Shown here: positions 19,988 to 42,467 of the stretch, piece by piece
Numbering within the stretch: position 1 is the stretch's first letter
Layout: each line of letters starts with the position of its first letter
From: Paragyromitra xinjiangensis
Taxonomy: Eukaryota; Ascomycota; Pezizomycetes; Pezizales; Discinaceae
Assembly: GCA_038503065.1 (NCBI GenBank)
Contig: JBCAMK010000006.1
Coordinates: 682,001-746,000, forward strand
DNA: 64,000 nucleotides
Direction of reading: 5' to 3'
Translations under genes and position numbers: made by a program
Notes under the pieces: model-generated
What the model was told of the DNA's origin: nothing
Databases searched by the model: none
The model's input: the letters and a program-made list of their open reading frames with translations, nothing else

Positions 19988-22390
19988 ATGCTCGTGTTTA
20001 AATCTTTCTGGGTGTTCGGGATTGTGCTCACGGTTTCATATGCATATGCACTCCCTCCGAACATACCTCCACGTCTTCCTAACACTTCTCTACCGCCGCA
20101 CCCCATCCTGGACCCAAGATCATCGGTCCTAAATTTAAACGTTAGCAGTTATATTAATGGGACCACGGCTGAGTGTGTGGCAGCCGTTGGTCTTAAGATA
20201 TCGAAGTTTTTCCTCTTCAATTACATAGGTCATGCGTTTACGGTAAAGCCTGGAGCCGGATACAAGTCCACATACATGATCACCTTTGCTGTGGCATCGA
20301 TATTTCTTCCCTATTATGGGCTCCTCCTAGCTTGTCGAGGCATGGAAACATGCTCTATTCGGATGAATCATACTCTCAAGCGTGCTGGAAGAGGGGGCGC
20401 GTTATGCATCGTTGCGCGTACCAAGAAGTGGAGGCCAAGTCCTGGCGATAAAGCTTGGTGTTGGCGAACTGCCCCCACGGAACCCAGCTCAGGGGATGAA
20501 CTGTAAAATACCCCCACACGCAAGAAAGATGACTCAGCTAACAAAATCGTGCGCAGCCCGGTGGAAACAGTAAACTACCAGGGGTTGGAATTGGAGTATC
20601 TATCTCAAAAATACGTCCAGATACATGGCATGTGTCATCTCCCGCCTGGTGAAGAGTACATGCTCGCACGGCTACCTACAGACTACGATGTTGATTGGGA
20701 GGAAGTGAAGATGAAGGTTGAGGGTATGGAAGTGCCGGAGCTCAAGGATGAGGATAGCAGTATTTCCTCGAATTACAGCTTGACCCGACCAATGATTGCC
20801 CTGTTCCAGATTCTATCCGCGGTTCCTGTAATTTACCAGGCTCATTCGGATGAAAGTCGGCAATCCCACGGCTACGCAGGTTACCAGTTGACTGTTATAC
20901 CGTTTGCTCTGATGTCGATAATTAACACGTTCCAAACTATGGTCACTCCGAGTTATGGAGCCTCCTACATGGTACGATCGGATGTTATGGATGAAGCTGA
21001 GCGGCGAGGTGGCGTATTTCAGGGTGTTGTCGGGAGGGTTTTTGAGTCGACCAAGAAAATCTCGTTGGACTCATCAGTAAAGGACTATGGAGAAATAATT
21101 GGGGAAATCGGGGCTTTTGTTCCAGCGGAGCAGAGTCAGGATCCGGAGGGCGAAACGTCTAGTGGCCGCGCTACTGGTAATAGCCATACCCAACCAACCC
21201 CTAGTGGCCGCGAAAGTTCCGTGGAGAGGGTGGGAGGATCCTCTGCTTCGACTGGTAACGATATCACCCAACAGCTCCCCTCTGCCACCACGGGCGGCGG
21301 AGCCCCTAGAAAGAATACCGAAGGCGCTCGCCTATGGGTGAAGTTTCAGGATCCGGATACGGAGGAGATAACCCGTCACCTATACCCCGACCCAAAGGAG
21401 GTGGAATCGAGGAAGTACCCTAATTTCTATGCCACAAGAAAGGCTATGCACTTCATTTTTAGACACCAGGTCTGGGAGTCCTTCAGGGAAGAATTTCCTA
21501 TCATCCGATGGTTTTTAAAACCTCACGAATTGAGCAAGATGCCAAAGAGTGAAATACCAAGCTTGGAAAATAAGGCTTACAAAACGGAAGGAAACGTCAA
21601 GCAGAATATTGAAGTCCTGAGGCAGGAATCTGGCGATCCTAGTGAACCCCAGAGCAAAGACGAAATCCGCAACTTGCTAAAAATTGTACGAGTTAACCCC
21701 CAAAGGACCTGCATAGCTCGAATCTTTAAGCGGGCATCGGAGAAAAAGATCAAGGGGAGAGGAATGATCTTAGTTCCTGCGATTGGCCACCCGAGGACCC
21801 GAGGGAAGTACAAACGTGAGGTGTTCATGTACTATTTCACAGACATACTCTTCGTCCTCTCGATCGCCGCGCCGTATTTGATAACCTTTGCTTTGACAGG
21901 CTACCAAAAGGGGGGAAGCACCACGTTCCAAAGGGTGATTGTCGTGCTTTGGCTGGTGATGATGCAAGTTGCATGCATTCCCCAGAGGATCGTCTGGAAC
22001 TTTGTGCAAACCCGCCTTGTGCCGCTTGGCTCTAAAGCGTTGGATCGCGGCATATATTTTATCATTGTGGCAGGTGTATTATGGTCGGTGCCTGGAATCA
22101 TCGGATTCATCAATGTCTTACATATGATGGTCAATGACAACAAAGATACATGCGATGGCGCTTGTGAGAAACCCCCTCCAGACCCTTTGAGCTTGTACGT
22201 ATTTGCTAATTTAAACAGTTGCTCAGCTTGTGGACATATCAGGGTTCGGTACAGGAGCAACGTGAAGTTTGGAAGGAATCCACGTCTGGCCCTTTATCAG
22301 CTATATTTCTGCGCGGCAGGAGGGTATCAATTATTATTTCGGATTTTCACTTTGGCTTCTATATCTCTGTTGAGTTCCTTGATTCTGTAG
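19988..22390 (+). CDS. Orphan multi-pass membrane protein, 782 aa
   Basis: Two exons, 19988-20502 and 20557-22390, are joined over a 54 bp intron (GTAAAA, AGCTAAC branch site, GCGCAG) that removes the only in-frame stop. Residues 1-19 are a signal peptide or signal anchor. A membrane block follows (KFFLFNYIGHAFTV, then two helices), then ALCIVARTKKWRP, and further on GYAGYQLTVIPFALMSIINT, a long Ser/Gly-rich hydrophilic region (about 360-450), and a C-terminal block with at least four hydrophobic helices between about residues 600 and 700. I know this layout from functionally uncharacterised membrane proteins of filamentous fungi. The gene at 58118-59821 is a paralogue sharing the FF-L-NYG-HA and GYA-Y-LTVIP motifs. 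The last ~60 residues may contain an unrecognised intron. Confidence 0.75.
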
Positions 22391-25552: not shown

Positions 25553-26608
25553 TAGTGGAGTATAGACAGCGCATCAAATCCACCACGCGCAGAGTGTCCC
25601 CAGACTATTGCCGCAAACCGCAAAGGCTACCCGTTGCCAGCTGCAGGGAGGACCAGATATCCAACTCGGAAGTTACACAGGTACAGATTACAGGCCTTGA
25701 TCCGCAAAATTCTTTCTCGACCGCCATAAGGACTCATGAATTCTACTCCATTAGACAGCACACTCCCAAAAACTCATCCGGAGTTCTCATGTGGCTCTCA
25801 TTGTGAATTGAGAGTTCCTTGCTCAGCTCCGTACCGCAAAGAGGAACCTCTGGCAAGTTGGGTGAGGGCGGGCCAAGTGTGGGGATAGAGTGTCTTCCAG
25901 TGCTTTCCCAGCTGGCCGCCCGGCCATGGCTCCCATTGCGTAAATTGACCGGCATATTTTAAACTTCGATCTGGCCATGTCTGTGCTACGGTAGAACCTG
26001 TCAAAACTCTGCTTGCGATCGCATTCCTGGAAATCTTAGGCTTTAGGGGAACAAGTCTGAATTTTCTTAATAATCCCCTCATTTCACTGGTCCAGCATCT
26101 TCCCTCATGTGTGACACCTAAAACTTAACTAAGGGGATTATCGCACACTGAAAAACTGCTTGGCCAATCCAGGTAGAGTCTTCGCCCGGGAACAGTGAAA
26201 AAAAGCCATGAAGCACTAGAAAGAGATCATTTCGCTCGTTCTGTTTCACCCCTCCTGAGTTTGTACTCCGCTGGTCAGACGCTTGGCTGGTTTCATTAGG
26301 AGTTTCACTCCATCCACGCGCAGCGCATTGCAGCATCTATTCCCATACGAGACTTGAGGTTATTTGCCTTAAGCTTATGCTTGCGTAAATCGCACGATCT
26401 TATTTTCATTGGCATGCAGACTCTGCTGTATAGATGCAAGAATGTCGGCGACTTGCGAGGGGTGTGGCAGATCCAAGCTTAGTTGCTAACTTTCAAGTTC
26501 GGGGGTCATTGCTCTACCTGCTGTGTGAAAGATATAAAGCTTAAGGTTGCCATCCATTATTCACTCGATCACACTTTAAGAGCTATCCTGCTTCGCTGTA
26601 TTGCCACC

Positions 26609-27772
26609 ATGTCTCGAGTCCCTCTCAAACGCCGACTTATCTATAAAGTTCTCCTTTTCATATCCCCATTCGCCATATGCAGCATAATCCCCTTCTCCTT
26701 CCTACTACTTGTACTCTCTAAACCTTCCTCCCAATCCCCCTACCCCCATCTCGAGAATCGCAGCGATGAAACCGATTCCGATGGCCAATGCGGCTTTCAA
26801 GGCGATGATAACACCTACGGTCTGGGGATCCGCCTAAGCCTCTATATTCAATGGTTTACGTTTATCCTTACCTGCGGCTTCGTAACGTGTGAGGCTACTT
26901 CTATCCGCGAGATAACAAATACCTTCCAAGGCGCCATGTTTATAACGCTCATCTACATCACTGCGACCAAAGGATCGGAGCTCTACGCAGTCGAGGCATA
27001 CATCGTGCTCAGCTTCTGCGCTGCTGGTGGCGGCGCTGAGTCCTTGATAGGCGGCGTGATAGCGGAATTGAACCATCTGAAAGATGGCAGCGACGTAGGA
27101 GAGTTTTTGGTCGCATATGTGACGCACTCAGGAGGACTTATCCAATTTCTCTTAGCAATGGGACTGCACGCTTACGGGGTATGGTTCTTTTTTACAGGGA
27201 TGGATAAAATGAAGCATCCACCCTGTAGCACGTTTATATTTTTCTTCAGTAGAGTGAATGCGTACCACTGGATACGAACGTTGATGAAGGTTACCTACAC
27301 GATAGCATTCATCTCTCTAGCTCCCGGCCTTCTCATGCTTATGGTCATCAAAATCTCGAGGGTCGTTCGAGCTATCAGTGGCGCCAAGAGCACAAAGGAC
27401 GGCGATCCAAATGTGGGGGTCGCCGGAGGCGAATCCTTAAAAACGCAAACGGCGGAGGCTACCCCCCCGGATCCAACCTCTTTTTGTGCAATTTGCGGCG
27501 GGCGGCTGGCGGCTGGAGGTTGTACGTATACATGTACATCGGTTTCGCCGAAAGATCTGGATTCTTTGGGGACCATTACCAGGACCGCGACCGTTTTAAT
27601 TCTCGGCTTTATTCGTGCATTTGTTGTTGTAACTATCGAAACGACGATCAAGTGGAATAATATCCGAGGGGTAAATGGAATAGGATCCACGGGGCAGTTA
27701 TTGCCACTAATTATTGCGGGTGGGGGACTATGCACGATTTTACATAAATGGTATAAACTCAAAACGAAATAG
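26609..27772 (+). CDS. Orphan multi-pass membrane protein, 387 aa
   Basis: Intronless. The start at 26609 is chosen because it has a strong fungal start context (GCCACCATGTC); the frame is open upstream to 26483 but that part reads poorly. Hydrophobic helices lie at about residues 11-32, 70-90, 98-118, 128-150, 178-200 and 228-250, with two more near 325-345 and 360-378. The hydrophilic N-terminal loop contains CGFQGDDNTYGLGIRLSLYI, a motif I associate with functionally uncharacterised membrane proteins in many filamentous ascomycetes. Between the two membrane blocks is a Cys-rich stretch (CAICGGRLAAGGCTYTC) that could bind a metal. No sign of decay. Confidence 0.75.
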   Translation: MSRVPLKRRLIYKVLLFISPFAICSIIPFSFLLLVLSKPSSQSPYPHLENRSDETDSDGQCGFQGDDNTYGLGIRLSLYIQWFTFILTCGFVTCEATSIREITNTFQGAMFITLIYITATKGSELYAVEAYIVLSFCAAGGGAESLIGGVIAELNHLKDGSDVGEFLVAYVTHSGGLIQFLLAMGLHAYGVWFFFTGMDKMKHPPCSTFIFFFSRVNAYHWIRTLMKVTYTIAFISLAPGLLMLMVIKISRVVRAISGAKSTKDGDPNVGVAGGESLKTQTAEATPPDPTSFCAICGGRLAAGGCTYTCTSVSPKDLDSLGTITRTATVLILGFIRAFVVVTIETTIKWNNIRGVNGIGSTGQLLPLIIAGGGLCTILHKWYKLKTK

Positions 27773-32348: not shown

Positions 32349-35300
32349 TCATTCATCGGGCTTAAAGCTATCGTCAGATAGCTGACATACCCTACCGGTG
32401 GCATTCGTAACACCGAAGTGGTCACTACCAGTAATTGACTCTTCGCAGAGGTAACTACTGTATATCAGGCCTGTATACAAAGGAATTAAGGATCATCGAG
32501 GAGTAACATCGATACATACCACTGCAAAGTTTCACACCAGCCACACTTCATCTTATTACACCCATCTCTCTTCAACAGCTTCGTTCTACAGTTCCTACAC
32601 TACATCAACCACCAATCACAAATAATAGTGGATCTAAACTCACTTGCATTGTTTAAGGATTGCGTCTGTTAGCATCTTTTCTATCTGCAACCGCACACGC
32701 CCCTTCAATGCCTCTGCAGCAATAAGGTCTCGAATGATAATCGCGAGCTCCTTCTCTCTCTCGGCTACTGCTAGCTGCTTCTTGCGACTTTCTTCCTCCT
32801 CGCAACTCAATAGTCCATGTGCGTCTTTACGGCACTTCCGGCATGTGATTTTCTTACCTACATCCTGTTAGCTTTGCTGATAGATTTAGCACGGGGAACA
32901 GAAACCTACATGCTGGATTTGTGCAGGCACAAACAGTGCTCAAGTCTAACGGTCCACACTCTACAACAGTCCCACAGTTCTCGCAGATCTCAACTAGCTC
33001 TCCGATGCCGAGATCGTTAATCTTTGCTTCGAGGCTTTCGCGAGGGATATTGTTCAGGATTTCAAAGTCTAAGAAGCGGAGCACTTCTCCGCCAGGGAAG
33101 ATCTTGCCGCAAATGGTGTCGAGGCACTTTAGAACAGAGAAGTCCATGCTGAGTTGATTTATTGCATACCCGCGTGCAGCCTCTAGACAGAACGGATGGC
33201 CATCCTCACAGCGAACAGTTTCTAAGGGTGGATAGATGCGGAGACAGTGCCCGCACTCTGTACTCTCCTTATACGCTTCTTCACATGTCTTCTCGCCATG
33301 AGCGGCCTTCTTGCACTTTCTGCAGCTACTCTTCCCACCTATATTGTTATATCAGTAATTAGGCTATTCCTAGAAGATGTACAACAGGGGGGAAACGCAC
33401 AAGAACTATTCGCGCAATTCACCGCAACATCCCCACACAACGCTATACTCTCACAGTAGAGACAGAACTCGACTAGCCCTCTGATACCGAGATCATCAAT
33501 CATGGTTTCAATAATTTCGCGAGGGATGCTATTAAAGACTTCAAGGTCCAAGAAACGGAGAACTGCTTCGCCAGGGAAGATCTTGCCGCAAATGGTGTCG
33601 AGGCACTTTAGAACAGAGAAGCCCATGCTGAGTTGGTTTTTTGCGTGCCCGCGTGCAGCCTCAAGACAGAATGGATGGCCGTCTTCACAGCGGACGATAT
33701 CTAAGGGCGGGTAGGTACGCAGACAGTGCCCGCACTCTGTACTCTCCTTATACGCTTCTTCACATGTCTTCTCGCCATGAGCGGCCTTCTTGCACTTCCG
33801 GCAGCTACTCTTCCCGCCTATATTGTTGTATTAGTAATTAGGTCCCCGGAGGATGTGTAACGCGGGGAATAACGTACAAGAGCTGTTCGCGCAATTCACT
33901 ACAGCTTCATCCCCACACACCGCTACGCTCTCACAGTAGGGACAAAACTCCACAAGCCCTCTGATACCGAGATCGTCAATCTTGGTTTCAATCCTTTCGC
34001 GAGGGATGCTATTAAAGACTTCAAGGTCCAAGAAACGGAGAACTTCTTCGCCGGGGAAGATCTTGGCGCAGACCGGGTCGAGGCAATTTAGCACGGAGAC
34101 ATCTTCGCCGAGTCGATTTTTGGCATACTCCCGTGTAAACTCAAGGCAGAACGGATGGCCGCCTTCGCAGCGAGTAATCTCTAATGGCGGGTAGACGTGG
34201 AGACAATGGCCGCACTCCATACTCTCCTTATAAGCCTCTTCGCATGTCTTCGCGCCATGTGCGGCCTTCTTGCACTTCCGGCAGCTACTCTTCCCACCTA
34301 TAGTATATGAGCAAACGGGCAATTTCCGGAAAACAAAGTGGGGAATAACTTACAGGAATTATTTGCACACGTCAATTCTACTTCATTCTCACACTCGGCT
34401 AGTCTCTCACAGTAGGGGCAGAACTCTACGAGTCCTCTGATGCCGAGATCATCAATCTTGGCTTCAAGACTTTCGCGGGGGGTATCATTGTTTAAGGCCT
34501 CGAGATCCAAGAAACGGAGGACTTCTTTGCCGGGAAAGACCTTGTCACAGATCGGGTCGAGACACTTTGGCACGGAGACATTCTTGCCAAGTTGGTTTGT
34601 TGCATACTCGAGACAAAATGGATGACTGTCCTCGCAGCGAACAATTTCTAAGGGCGGGTAGACCTGGAGGCAATGCCCACACTCCATGCTCTCCTTATAT
34701 GCCTCTCCGCATGTCTTCGCGCCGTGTGCGGCTTTCTTACACTTCCGGCAGCTACTCTTCCCACCTATACTATATCAGCAAACAGGCTATTTCTAGAAAA
34801 CAGCGTGGGAGTAATGTACATGGAATATTTGCACACGTCAGCATTGCTTCATCCTCGCACTTGACTAAGCTCTCACAGTAGGGGCAAAACTCCACGAGTC
34901 CTTGGATACCGAGATCATCAATCTTGGTTTCGAGATTTTCGCGAGGCGTGTTGTTCAAGGCTTCTAGGTCCAAGAAACGGAGGACTTCTTTGCCGGGGAA
35001 GACCTTGTCACAGATGGGATTGAGACACCTTGGCACGGAGACGTCTTTGCTGAGTTTGTTTGTTGCATACTCCAGACAGAATGGGTGGCTGTCCTCACAA
35101 CGCACAATTTCTAAGGGCGGGTAGATACGGAGACAATGCCCGCACTCCGTGCTCTCCTTATAAGCCTCCTCACATTTCTTTGCACCATGTGCGGCCTTCC
35201 TACATTTCCTGCAGCTAATCTTCTCACCTATGCAATATTAGTAAACGGACCATTTCCGGAACATGGGACAAAACGCACAAGAACCATTCGTACACGCCAA

Positions 35301-35920
35301 GACTACTTCATTTTCACACCCTACCACGCTTTCACAGTACGGGCAAATCTCCACAAGCCCCGTCAGGCCAAAGCGACTAATCATGGCATCTAGTTGTTCT
35401 CGGGGTACTCCAGTAAAGATGTTTAGGTCAATGAACTGCAACACCTCTGTGCCAAGATAGGTCTCGCCGCATGAGGGAAGAACGCATTTTAGCGTAGGGA
35501 GGTCCTTGCCCAGCTGCGTTTGAGTATAGACGCGGGCGCAGGAGAGACAGATAGGATGTCCTGAGATACACTTGGAGATGTCGTTGGGGGGGTGATGGCT
35601 GTTGCAGGAGGAAGAGCAAAGGATGTGAGTAGGATCAACAGGTGGTGGGGCTGGAGAGACTACGGACGATTAGTGAAAGCACTAGGGGAGAATAGGTGAG
35701 CGGGGAGGGGCAGACCTTCTTCATCTTCGGACGACTCCATTTCGGAACCATCCTCGGACCACTCCTCCTCCTCAGTATCATAGTTTAAGATGCTGTCCCT
35801 TCCCTCTGCAAGGGTATCCAATGTCGCGTAGACTAGTTCTGCCATGAGTATGAGCAGTAGTGCAAAGAGAAGCTGGTGCTGTCTAAACGAGGGTAGAGTG
35901 TAAGAATAATTATTACTCAT
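32349..35920 (-). CDS. RBR E3 ubiquitin ligase with six tandem RING1-IBR modules, 1022 aa
   Basis: Ten exons: 35716-35920, 35279-35659, 34820-35227, 34354-34764, 33878-34297, 33401-33817, 32910-33338, 32644-32857, 32520-32594 and 32349-32457. Together they give 1023 codons with no internal stop. Exon 1 encodes a hydrophobic helix and an acidic stretch. Exons 2-7 each encode one module: RING1-like (C..C, RCE..HPFC, CL...C) then the start of an IBR (CPYCES, CAN.SC). The next exon completes that IBR with SCRKCKKAAHG...CEE. All six introns between modules are phase 1 and split a Cys codon. Exons 8-10 encode RING2: C-K-N-C, then RDGCNKMKCGWC, where the first Cys is the expected ubiquitin acceptor, then YLCEESITGSDHF. 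Known RBR ligases (e.g. parkin, RNF216) take ubiquitin from E2 on RING1 and pass it via the RING2 Cys. The repetition is the oddity. Confidence 0.9.
32857..35659 (-). repeat. Tandem exon array, six units, period about 463-481 bp
   Basis: Exon starts at 35227, 34764, 34297, 33817, 33338 and 32857 are spaced 463, 467, 480, 479 and 481 bp apart. Introns between them (about 51-60 bp) are alike too. The units at 33338-33817 and 32857-33338 are nearly identical over long stretches (such as CGGCAAGATCTTCCCTGGCG and the AAGACATGTGAAGAAGCGTA block), while the first unit (35279-35659) is the most divergent. Confidence 0.9.
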
Positions 35921-36480: not shown

Positions 36481-37258
36481 CCAGCGCAGTAAATGCATCA
36501 GTAAATGCATCAGCAAATGCATCATTTACTCACCCATTATTTTCTATGGGTAAGTCGTCGGTAAATGCATCAAATCCTTATATATTATTTCTGTGGGAAA
36601 GGCATCAGGAAAGGCATCAGGAAAGTCGTAGGGGAATGCATCAAAAGCACAGCAAAAATTTGTATGGGAAATGCATCAGGAAATGCATCAAGAAATGCAT
36701 CAAGAAATGCATCAGTAAATGCATCATTAGTGACATTATACACATTTCCCTACGACTTTCCAAACCTTAATTCAAAAGAGTCCAGAGCAAAAAGTAATCA
36801 GGTCCAGGAGTTGAACCTGGAGTATTCAGCATGTCTACTGAGTTCTTTACCACTTGCACTATCTATCATATAATTTAACTTTCCAAATAGCCAATTTATT
36901 CCAAAAAAGTAGCCAAATACACATTTACTGATGCTTTTACTGATGCCTTTCCCGACGACATTCCCAAATACACATTCTCCTACAACTTTCCCGACGACTT
37001 TCCAAAGTACCCATTTACTGATGCTTTTACTGATTCCTTTACTGATGCCTTTCCCAACAACTTTCCAAAGTACCCATTTACTGATGCCTTTACTGATGCC
37101 TTTCTTGATGCCTTTTCTAGTGGTCTTCTTATATACACATTTGTTGATGCCTTTCTCAAAAAGGACACCAGTAAAGTCGTTTGTAAATGCATCATTTCAT
37201 CCCTTTTCCCCTCAGATTTGTATGGGCAATGTGTAAATTGATGCATTTACTGCCGTAG
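36481..37258. mobile_element. Element G copy 1, about 778 bp
   Basis: Both ends face inward with GCAGTAAATGCATCA. Its body is filled with GTAAATGCATCA or GGAAAGGCATCA units in one direction in the left part and their complements in the right part, so the whole can fold back on itself. A tRNA-like stretch occupies about 36795-36870. A second copy in reverse orientation lies at 54223-55273. No coding capacity; the many ATGCAT-spaced short frames are artefacts of the repeats. Confidence 0.75.
36795..36870 (-). other. tRNA-like segment inside element G
   Basis: On the minus strand it reads AGTGCAAGTGGTAAA (A-box-like), then CCAGGTTCAACTCCTGG, a T-arm with a paired stem and TTCAA loop. The flanks do not form an acceptor stem, so it is a tRNA-derived piece, not a gene. 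The same piece is in copy 2 at about 55000-55073. Confidence 0.5.
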
Positions 37259-41072: not shown

Positions 41073-42467
41073 CTATTCGCAGTAAGCCATCCCTTCATCC
41101 CAGCTAATATCAGGGGCTTGCCATACATATTTTGCCTCTGGAATTGAGGAACGCACAAGATCGATATCACCTGTTTCGAACACTGTACAGTCACATGGAT
41201 ATTCCGGGTCTACTGGTTTGTTGAACTGTTCTCCCGGGATCCTCAGAATATATTCTGCCCGAAAAGTCGATATTTTGATGGATGGTGGATTCGAAGCGAG
41301 ATGCTCAAGCACAACAACGTTCTCCTCCTTCGGTCGATTATCGACAAGATCCCGGGTAGTAGTTATAGATCCCGGGCCACTCGTGTTTTCGGGTTTGTGG
41401 AAAGTGAGATACGTAGGTGGTTTGAGATGAGGTGTAGCCATAATATATTTTGTTGCTAGTTTTTGCTTCTTCCAGTGTACTTCAACTGGAACAAAGGCAA
41501 ATTTGGTATATCTATCCTTGCCGCGTCGTGCCAGTACTCCTGCCCCCGATCCCGGTGGAATCTTGAGGAAAATGTCAGTACCCTTGGCCCCCAAAGACCT
41601 TATGTCATGTAATCCATCCAGAAGCTCGAAAAGAATATCGCATGTGAGGAGTGTTCCGTGATTTCCATCCTGCCTCCCATAATTACTTGTTCGGGTCAGT
41701 ACCGTGTACAAATTATCCCTCGGAATACAATACGGATATGGTGAACTTACTGGATCCCAATAACGCAAGGCCCGTTCCTCTCAATACAAACCGGGCCACC
41801 ACTGTGCCCTGGGAGGGTACTAACTTGATATCTTAGTTGTCCATCCGTGATGGTGCTAATTCTCCCCTTTGCATTCTGGGCTTCTCTTATCTCGTTCGGT
41901 TCAGGACTCGGATAGCCATACACCGTTGCTTCTTGTCCGATTAATTTCTCCTTATCGGGGAGGAGACTATAGGCAAAGCCTCCAGCGTGGTCCTTCTCAT
42001 AGTCCTGCTCCTCAATCCTGATACAGCCATAGTCGTTAACACGGTTCGTCTGATTTGGCATCTTCTCGTAGCTCTTCGAGGCAAAGTACTGTCCCTTGTC
42101 GCCATACACAACTATCGTCTCGGCTCCATCAAAGATGATGTTGATTTTTACCGCATAAATGCCATCTTTGTTTATGAGGTTATGGCCAGCCGTCATTATA
42201 ACACCTTGTTTGTACCAGTCAGGCAAGCAGATGAGGAATCCTGTACCGAAATATTGAGGCTCTTCTGAGTGTGTATACGTATTAGCGAGTTATTTCCCTT
42301 ACGAAATCAGGGCTCACACCTCCGGGTGTAAAAAAGATCTCCAAAGCGCAGATACATTTAGAAACCCAATTAGTGCCGACAAGAGTGCTATGAGGCAGCC
42401 CCATCTCAGGTTGGTAGTCCCCGGCAACCTCAGCTACATCTTCCGCATTGCCGTGCCGAAGATTCAT
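41073..42467 (-). CDS. Trypsin-like serine protease with C-terminal extension, 424 aa
   Basis: Exons 42320-42467, 41751-42264 and 41685 down to 41073. The joined frame is clean and both introns have branch-like motifs (CTAAT, CTGAC). The catalytic triad of the chymotrypsin fold is complete: His77 in TAGHN, Asp127 in VNDYGCI, Ser204 in PGHSGGPV. GTGFLI before the His and VIGIHNYG after the Ser are also typical, nearest to the V8/glutamyl-endopeptidase type. There is no signal peptide, so it probably acts inside the cell. About 180 residues after the protease domain (from about residue 245) are unlike any domain I know. In fungi such cytosolic trypsin-like domains also occur as effector parts of NLR-type proteins. 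Here it stands alone, convergent with the vWA gene. Confidence 0.85.

Follow-up and report, generated by a model that had tools for sequence, protein, structure and literature searches.

RING1-IBR-RING2 (RBR) ubiquitin ligases are described as carrying one set of these three domains and a single allosteric ubiquitin site. In the sections of PMC9834252 on which we draw throughout, RING1 binds the ubiquitin-conjugating enzyme (E2), ubiquitin passes from the E2 to a cysteine of RING2, the allosteric ubiquitin is bound by the RING1-IBR helix together with the IBR, and K63 di-ubiquitin activates RNF216 (TRIAD3). The gene considered here lies in a stretch of 64,000 nucleotides (the window) from contig JBCAMK010000006.1 of the fungus Paragyromitra xinjiangensis, and its predicted product has six RING1-IBR modules ahead of a single RING2. 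Human RNF216 (PDB 7m4m, 8eb0) is its closest described counterpart, with the same RING1, IBR and RING2 sequences and order at the C-terminal end and a catalytic Cys in a G-C-N motif. The other RBR ligases HOIL-1, HOIP, parkin and ARIH1 share the relay from E2 to RING2 Cys and, on the same source, an allosteric site for ubiquitin or a ubiquitin-like (UBL) domain at the RING1-IBR interface, but each is a single RBR unit.

Our best reading, to which we give about an even chance of being right, is that this is a paralogue of RNF216 whose exon for RING1 and a split IBR has been amplified to six copies, giving a ubiquitin-binding array with one active site. It would thus be an RBR protein that comes from RNF216 and has its front half multiplied. 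A search of the open-access literature, judged mostly by titles and the openings of abstracts, turned up no description of several RING1-IBR units with one RING2, in keeping with the initial annotation of this DNA, whose author knew of no such layout among described RBR ligases.

Gene structure and domain architecture

The gene occupies positions 35920..32349 of the window on the minus strand, which the initial annotation had left unstated. From splice signals, reading frame and homology we obtain the ten exons first proposed, joined across nine GT-AG introns of 49–65 nucleotides into 1021 codons and a stop, with no internal stop; the 1022-residue frame given earlier thus corresponds to 1021 residues plus the stop codon. 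This count holds for the first ATG, at 35920. Translation probably begins at the second ATG (35845), giving 996 residues, because the sequence that follows it, MAELVYATLD..RDSILNYDTEEEE, resembles by eye the N-termini of two relatives, P0002 and P0020.

The repeated part has a regular exon structure. Introns 2–7 are in phase 1 and each interrupts a Cys codon within an IBR, as T/GT or T/GC, just as had been noticed at the outset for the repeats. Intron 1 is also in phase 1, and introns 8 and 9 are in phase 2. Each inner repeat exon opens within one IBR, runs through an entire RING1 and closes within the IBR that follows. Retention of any single intron (nine of nine tried) leads to a stop within 1–20 codons.

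The spliced frame contains six RING1-like signatures, as many complete IBR signatures and a single RING2. The order RING1, IBR, RING2 that defines the RBR family is present at its end, and the further RING1-IBR units precede the last one. Six full IBR signatures compare with none in 2000 shuffled versions of the protein. Hidden Markov model searches for IBR and RING domains, proposed as a check in the initial annotation, gave a less clear answer, since Pfam scores IBR at 18.1 bits, below its cut-off of 24.3, and zf-RING_14 at 26.6 bits, exactly its cut-off (26.6); a four-module relative, P0001, passes the IBR model with 62.6 bits. No CUE domain was found in the six-module protein by the Pfam search.

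Descent from RNF216

All three matches of the six-module protein in the PDB, at E values up to 0.1, are RNF216 chains (best 3.3e-17), with RING1-IBR and RING2 aligned as two separate stretches, and no other RBR protein matched within that limit. For the two-module relative P0002, RNF216 is likewise the better match (2.8e-18, against 1.6e-4 for ARIH1). The kinship with RBR ligases and the RING2 with its predicted catalytic Cys, as foreseen in the initial annotation, hold up: in the alignment with RNF216, Cys974 of the six-module protein falls on Cys688.

The same genome also encodes an ordinary RNF216. Searching it with the module gave 12 matches, 11 at the present locus and one on contig 18, where a gene at about 6975-4124 on the minus strand of G000:C18:730000-739999 (L017) codes for a single-module protein. 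This protein matches human RNF216 with an E value of 3.4e-43, aligned through the RBR region and past RING2, and has an N-terminal CUE domain just above the Pfam cut-off (22.3 bits, with the cut-off at 21.1). Splice signals and reading frame place three introns in its RBR region, and all three are found in the six-module gene, at the same codon and in the same phase. Because these introns are shared, the array most likely grew by copying of the exon between the IBR introns of an RNF216-type gene; the six-module gene is RNF216/TRIAD3-derived and has a common descent with the single-module gene. We class it as RNF216-derived and not as RNF216 itself, since it has six RING1-IBR units where the ordinary proteins have one. 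It differs from RNF216 also in that no CUE domain was found, in the loss of one RING1 zinc ligand in five modules, and in lacking the extension after RING2.

Relatives with module arrays

Of the 18 proteins found by a search with the six-module sequence, two have arrays, and both come from Pezizomycetes. P0001, a hypothetical protein from Peziza echinospora (798 residues), is 45% identical over 54% of the six-module protein and likewise combines a tandem RING1-IBR array with one RING2; it differs in having four modules, a low-complexity, Gly-rich linker ahead of RING2, and Asp for the catalytic Cys. It provides the kind of relative, with three or more IBR domains and one RING2, that the initial annotation had suggested looking for. 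P0002, likewise a hypothetical protein, from Pyronema omphalodes (586 residues), has only two modules, one of each of the two types described below, together with a low-complexity linker and tail, and its RING2 has a catalytic Cys. Profile searches added two further two-module proteins, P0020 and the fragment P0019, whose second IBR is degenerate, as well as the pieces P0021 and P0022 and the ordinary RNF216-like P0023. By pattern, none of 17 ordinary RNF216-like proteins has more than one IBR (15 have one and two have none).

In a maximum-likelihood tree of 22 rows (16 array modules and six ordinary RNF216 sequences), the 16 array modules separate from ordinary RNF216 with support of 100/100. 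Modules 2 and 3 of the window protein pair with each other (99/96) and modules 1–3 of the Peziza protein form a group (99/99), so that amplification seems to have continued within lineages; 10 of the 19 inner branches are weak. A Foldseek search with the predicted model of the Pyronema relative returned RNF216 (8eb0) as its first match, with an E value of 1.3e-9.

Two types of module

Are the six RING1 domains equivalent? Seven RING1 ligands are invariant in all 16 array modules (the window, P0001, P0002, P0019 and P0020). The IBR likewise has its eight ligands in each of these modules, apart from the degenerate last IBR of P0019; in the six-module protein all six IBR domains have their eight Cys/His ligands. 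By motif, the RING1 of module 1 has eight ligands. Ligand 6, however, is missing from modules 2–6, module 6 included, where it is replaced by Tyr, Tyr, Phe, Ala and Ala, respectively. The initial description of six RING1-IBR units followed by one RING2 is thus true for homology, but not for the full RING1 ligand set, which modules 2–6 do not have. Among the relatives, P0001, P0002 and P0020 each have Asp at ligand 6 of their first module, and the remaining seven modules have Ser or Ala there.

This loss goes together with a second change. The first RING1 pair reads C-x-H-C in all 12 array modules without Cys or Asp at ligand 6, and this His occurs in none of the four that have Cys or Asp there, all of which read C-x3-C. 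Since the twelve modules share descent, this is to be seen as a pattern and not as twelve independent events. It is possible that the zinc ligand has been swapped, with the His of C-x-H-C replacing ligand 6. Alternatively, the RING1 zinc site may have been lost, and the His may merely occupy the position aligned with RNF216 Cys517, an E2 contact in the account of PMC9834252.

These features bear on whether the protein might be a multivalent E2-docking ligase, in which each of the six RING1 domains would load its own ubiquitin-charged E2 (E2~Ub) and all would feed one RING2. We consider this unlikely. Besides the missing ligand 6 in modules 2–6, modules 2 and 3 are four residues short where the central RING1 helix, the carrier of the E2 interface, begins, and modules 2–6 have His at the Cys517 position and Leu at that of Tyr519, likewise an E2 contact in the RNF216 sections of that paper; moreover, just one RING2 is there to accept ubiquitin. 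With five of six RING1 domains lacking a zinc ligand, E2 recruitment by the repeat-type modules is doubtful, and the head module may be the sole conventional one. Of the E2- or substrate-docking units envisaged in the initial annotation, the E2-docking version is therefore the less well supported; ubiquitin binding is the better guess, because the IBR ligands are complete in all six modules whereas RING1 ligand 6 has been lost.

Catalytic cysteine and proposed function

In the reading that we favour, an RNF216 paralogue with a ubiquitin-binding array, an exon with RING1 and the two parts of a split IBR would have been copied to six tandem units ahead of the one RING2. Module 6, the helix that follows it and RING2 would form one catalytic unit, passing ubiquitin from E2~Ub to the RING2 Cys and on to substrate, and modules 1–5 would mainly form a multivalent array that binds ubiquitin through the RING1-IBR helix and IBR surface. 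Because the repeated half is the ubiquitin-reading part of the enzyme, multivalent binding is the most likely role of the five extra copies. The array could hold a ubiquitin chain or a ubiquitylated substrate beside the single active site, and holding ubiquitin there could raise avidity or processivity.

Several observations weigh against this. That the modules bind ubiquitin is something we infer from homology, and the RING1-IBR linker is shorter than that of RNF216 and contains an invariant Gly, so the allosteric site may have been altered too. Mean identity between the window and other species is 0.45 for the IBR, compared with 0.51 for both RING1 and linker; the IBR is thus the least conserved third of the module, which speaks against its being the part mainly under selection. 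Ligand 6 is missing also from module 6, the expected partner of RING2. The protein ends 11 residues past the last RING2 Cys, with the RNF216 extension after RING2, a part of the RBR-helix constructs, absent. As for structure, whole-model template modelling scores (TM-scores) of the Foldseek comparison with 8eb0 are low (0.12–0.25, with a root-mean-square deviation of 25 Å), as is expected for a flexible multi-domain model, and are no proof of the domain arrangement; the predicted four-module model is of low confidence, with a mean predicted local distance difference test (pLDDT) value of 48.5.

Could the protein instead be a non-catalytic scaffold or decoy, its array binding ubiquitin or E2 and its RING2 serving as a structural end-cap, with catalysis dispensable and perhaps vestigial here? 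The relatives lend this some support. Of the five array proteins whose RING2 is readable, three have the catalytic Cys replaced, by Asp in P0001, Asn in P0019 and His in P0020, whereas all 17 ordinary RNF216-like proteins keep it (16 by pattern, P0017 by eye). In these three array proteins the paired Cys, the His/Cys end and the putative zinc ligands stay despite the replacement. Catalysis has apparently been lost in them, and this suggests that the array can be worth keeping without it. Both the six-module protein, in the G-C-N motif, and Pyronema P0002 nevertheless retain the Cys. The six-module protein also keeps, at the end of its IBR-RING2 linker, the equivalents of the donor-ubiquitin residues Arg660 and Glu664 in the PDB alignment, while Ile672 in the linker end, and likewise Ile683 inside RING2, are replaced by Leu; these four RNF216 residues are among those named in PMC9834252. 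For the present protein we therefore think a purely structural RING2 unlikely, to much the same degree as an array of E2 docks.

Taken more broadly, and with a confidence well short of even, we propose that these genes represent a new Pezizomycete class of RBR proteins, in which the allosteric RING1-IBR half of RNF216 has been repeated as a polyvalent reader beside a single writer, the zinc site of the repeats has changed and the writer has been switched off in several relatives, so that the family would range from active multivalent ligases to dead ubiquitin scaffolds. Public data contain family members of two, four and six modules, some with the catalytic Cys and some lacking it, in which one could study how an RBR ligase becomes a non-catalytic scaffold. 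A natural protein that has six RING1-IBR halves to one active site would permit a direct test of the role of RING1-IBR apart from catalysis, ubiquitin reading as opposed to E2 loading, and the array family could show whether module copy number sets avidity or processivity.

Age of the copies and integrity of the gene

The copies are 61–90% alike in DNA sequence over the stretches listed. Synonymous divergence (Ks) between modules is 0.53–2.35 and the ratio of nonsynonymous to synonymous divergence (Ka/Ks) 0.11–0.26 in 14 of the 15 pairs, the fifteenth being saturated. Judged by these values, the array is old and its modules are under purifying selection. The introns between copies are visibly similar as well, as expected under exon duplication.

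Exons 3–7, of 408, 411, 420, 417 and 429 nucleotides, all lie between phase-1 introns and could be skipped in frame, so that alternative splicing might choose among modules and yield ligases with fewer of them. We regard this as improbable. The introns are short (49–65 nucleotides) with GT-AG ends, as is typical of intron definition, and in relatives single proteins with two and with four modules are annotated, though those are gene predictions.

That the array is an artefact (an assembly expansion, a row of short independent genes, or pseudogenes), a doubt raised in part in the initial annotation and to which the borderline Pfam scores might lend colour, is scarcely credible, since Ks of at least 0.53 in all pairs marks the modules as old, diverged copies and not assembly duplicates, Ka/Ks is low, the spliced frame is free of stops with its ligands kept, and another genus, Peziza, has an annotated protein with four modules.

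Feature coordinates and neighbouring sequence

Table 1. Features of the six-module gene, in positions of the window.
Feature	Position	Strand	Remarks
Exon 1, acidic N-terminal tail	35716..35920	-	Holds first ATG (35920) and likely start (35845)
Introns 2-7, Cys codon split, phase 1	span 32858..35278	-	IBR position same as in the genome's own single-module RNF216
Introns 2-4	35228-35278, 34765-34819, 34298-34353	-	Phase 1 in IBR Cys codon
Introns 5-7	33818-33877, 33339-33400, 32858-32909	-	Phase 1 in IBR Cys codon
Intron 8, phase 2	32595..32643	-	Position as in own RNF216
Intron 9, phase 2, within RING2	32455..32519	-	Position as in own RNF216
Module 1, head type: RING1 C-x3-C, ligand 6 Cys; complete IBR	35172..35618	-	Exons 2-3
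Module 2, repeat type: RING1 C-G-H-C without ligand 6; complete IBR	34709..35144	-	Exons 3-4
Module 3, repeat type, 4-residue deletion as in module 2	34242..34681	-	Exons 4-5
Module 4, repeat type	33762..34214	-	Exons 5-6
Module 5, repeat type	33283..33734	-	Exons 6-7
Module 6, repeat type, adjoins catalytic part	32802..33255	-	Exons 7-8
IBR-RING2 linker	32649..32801	-	End aligns with RNF216 donor-ubiquitin helix
RING2, eight putative Zn ligands (assigned by motif)	32385..32648	-	Exons 8-10
Predicted catalytic Cys codon TGT	32558..32560	-	Cys974 (1021 residues in all), aligned with C688 of RNF216

Elsewhere in the window, two long open reading frames on the plus strand, at 20507-22390 (627 residues) and 26483-27769 (429 residues), have hydrophobic stretches by eye and gave no Pfam match at 0.01. 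A further open reading frame, at 41750-42289 on the minus strand, matches Pfam Trypsin_2 (8.7e-10), a trypsin-like peptidase domain. Just upstream of the 5' end of the six-module gene, at 36487-37115, there are clusters of 12-base repeats of the ATGCATCA type.
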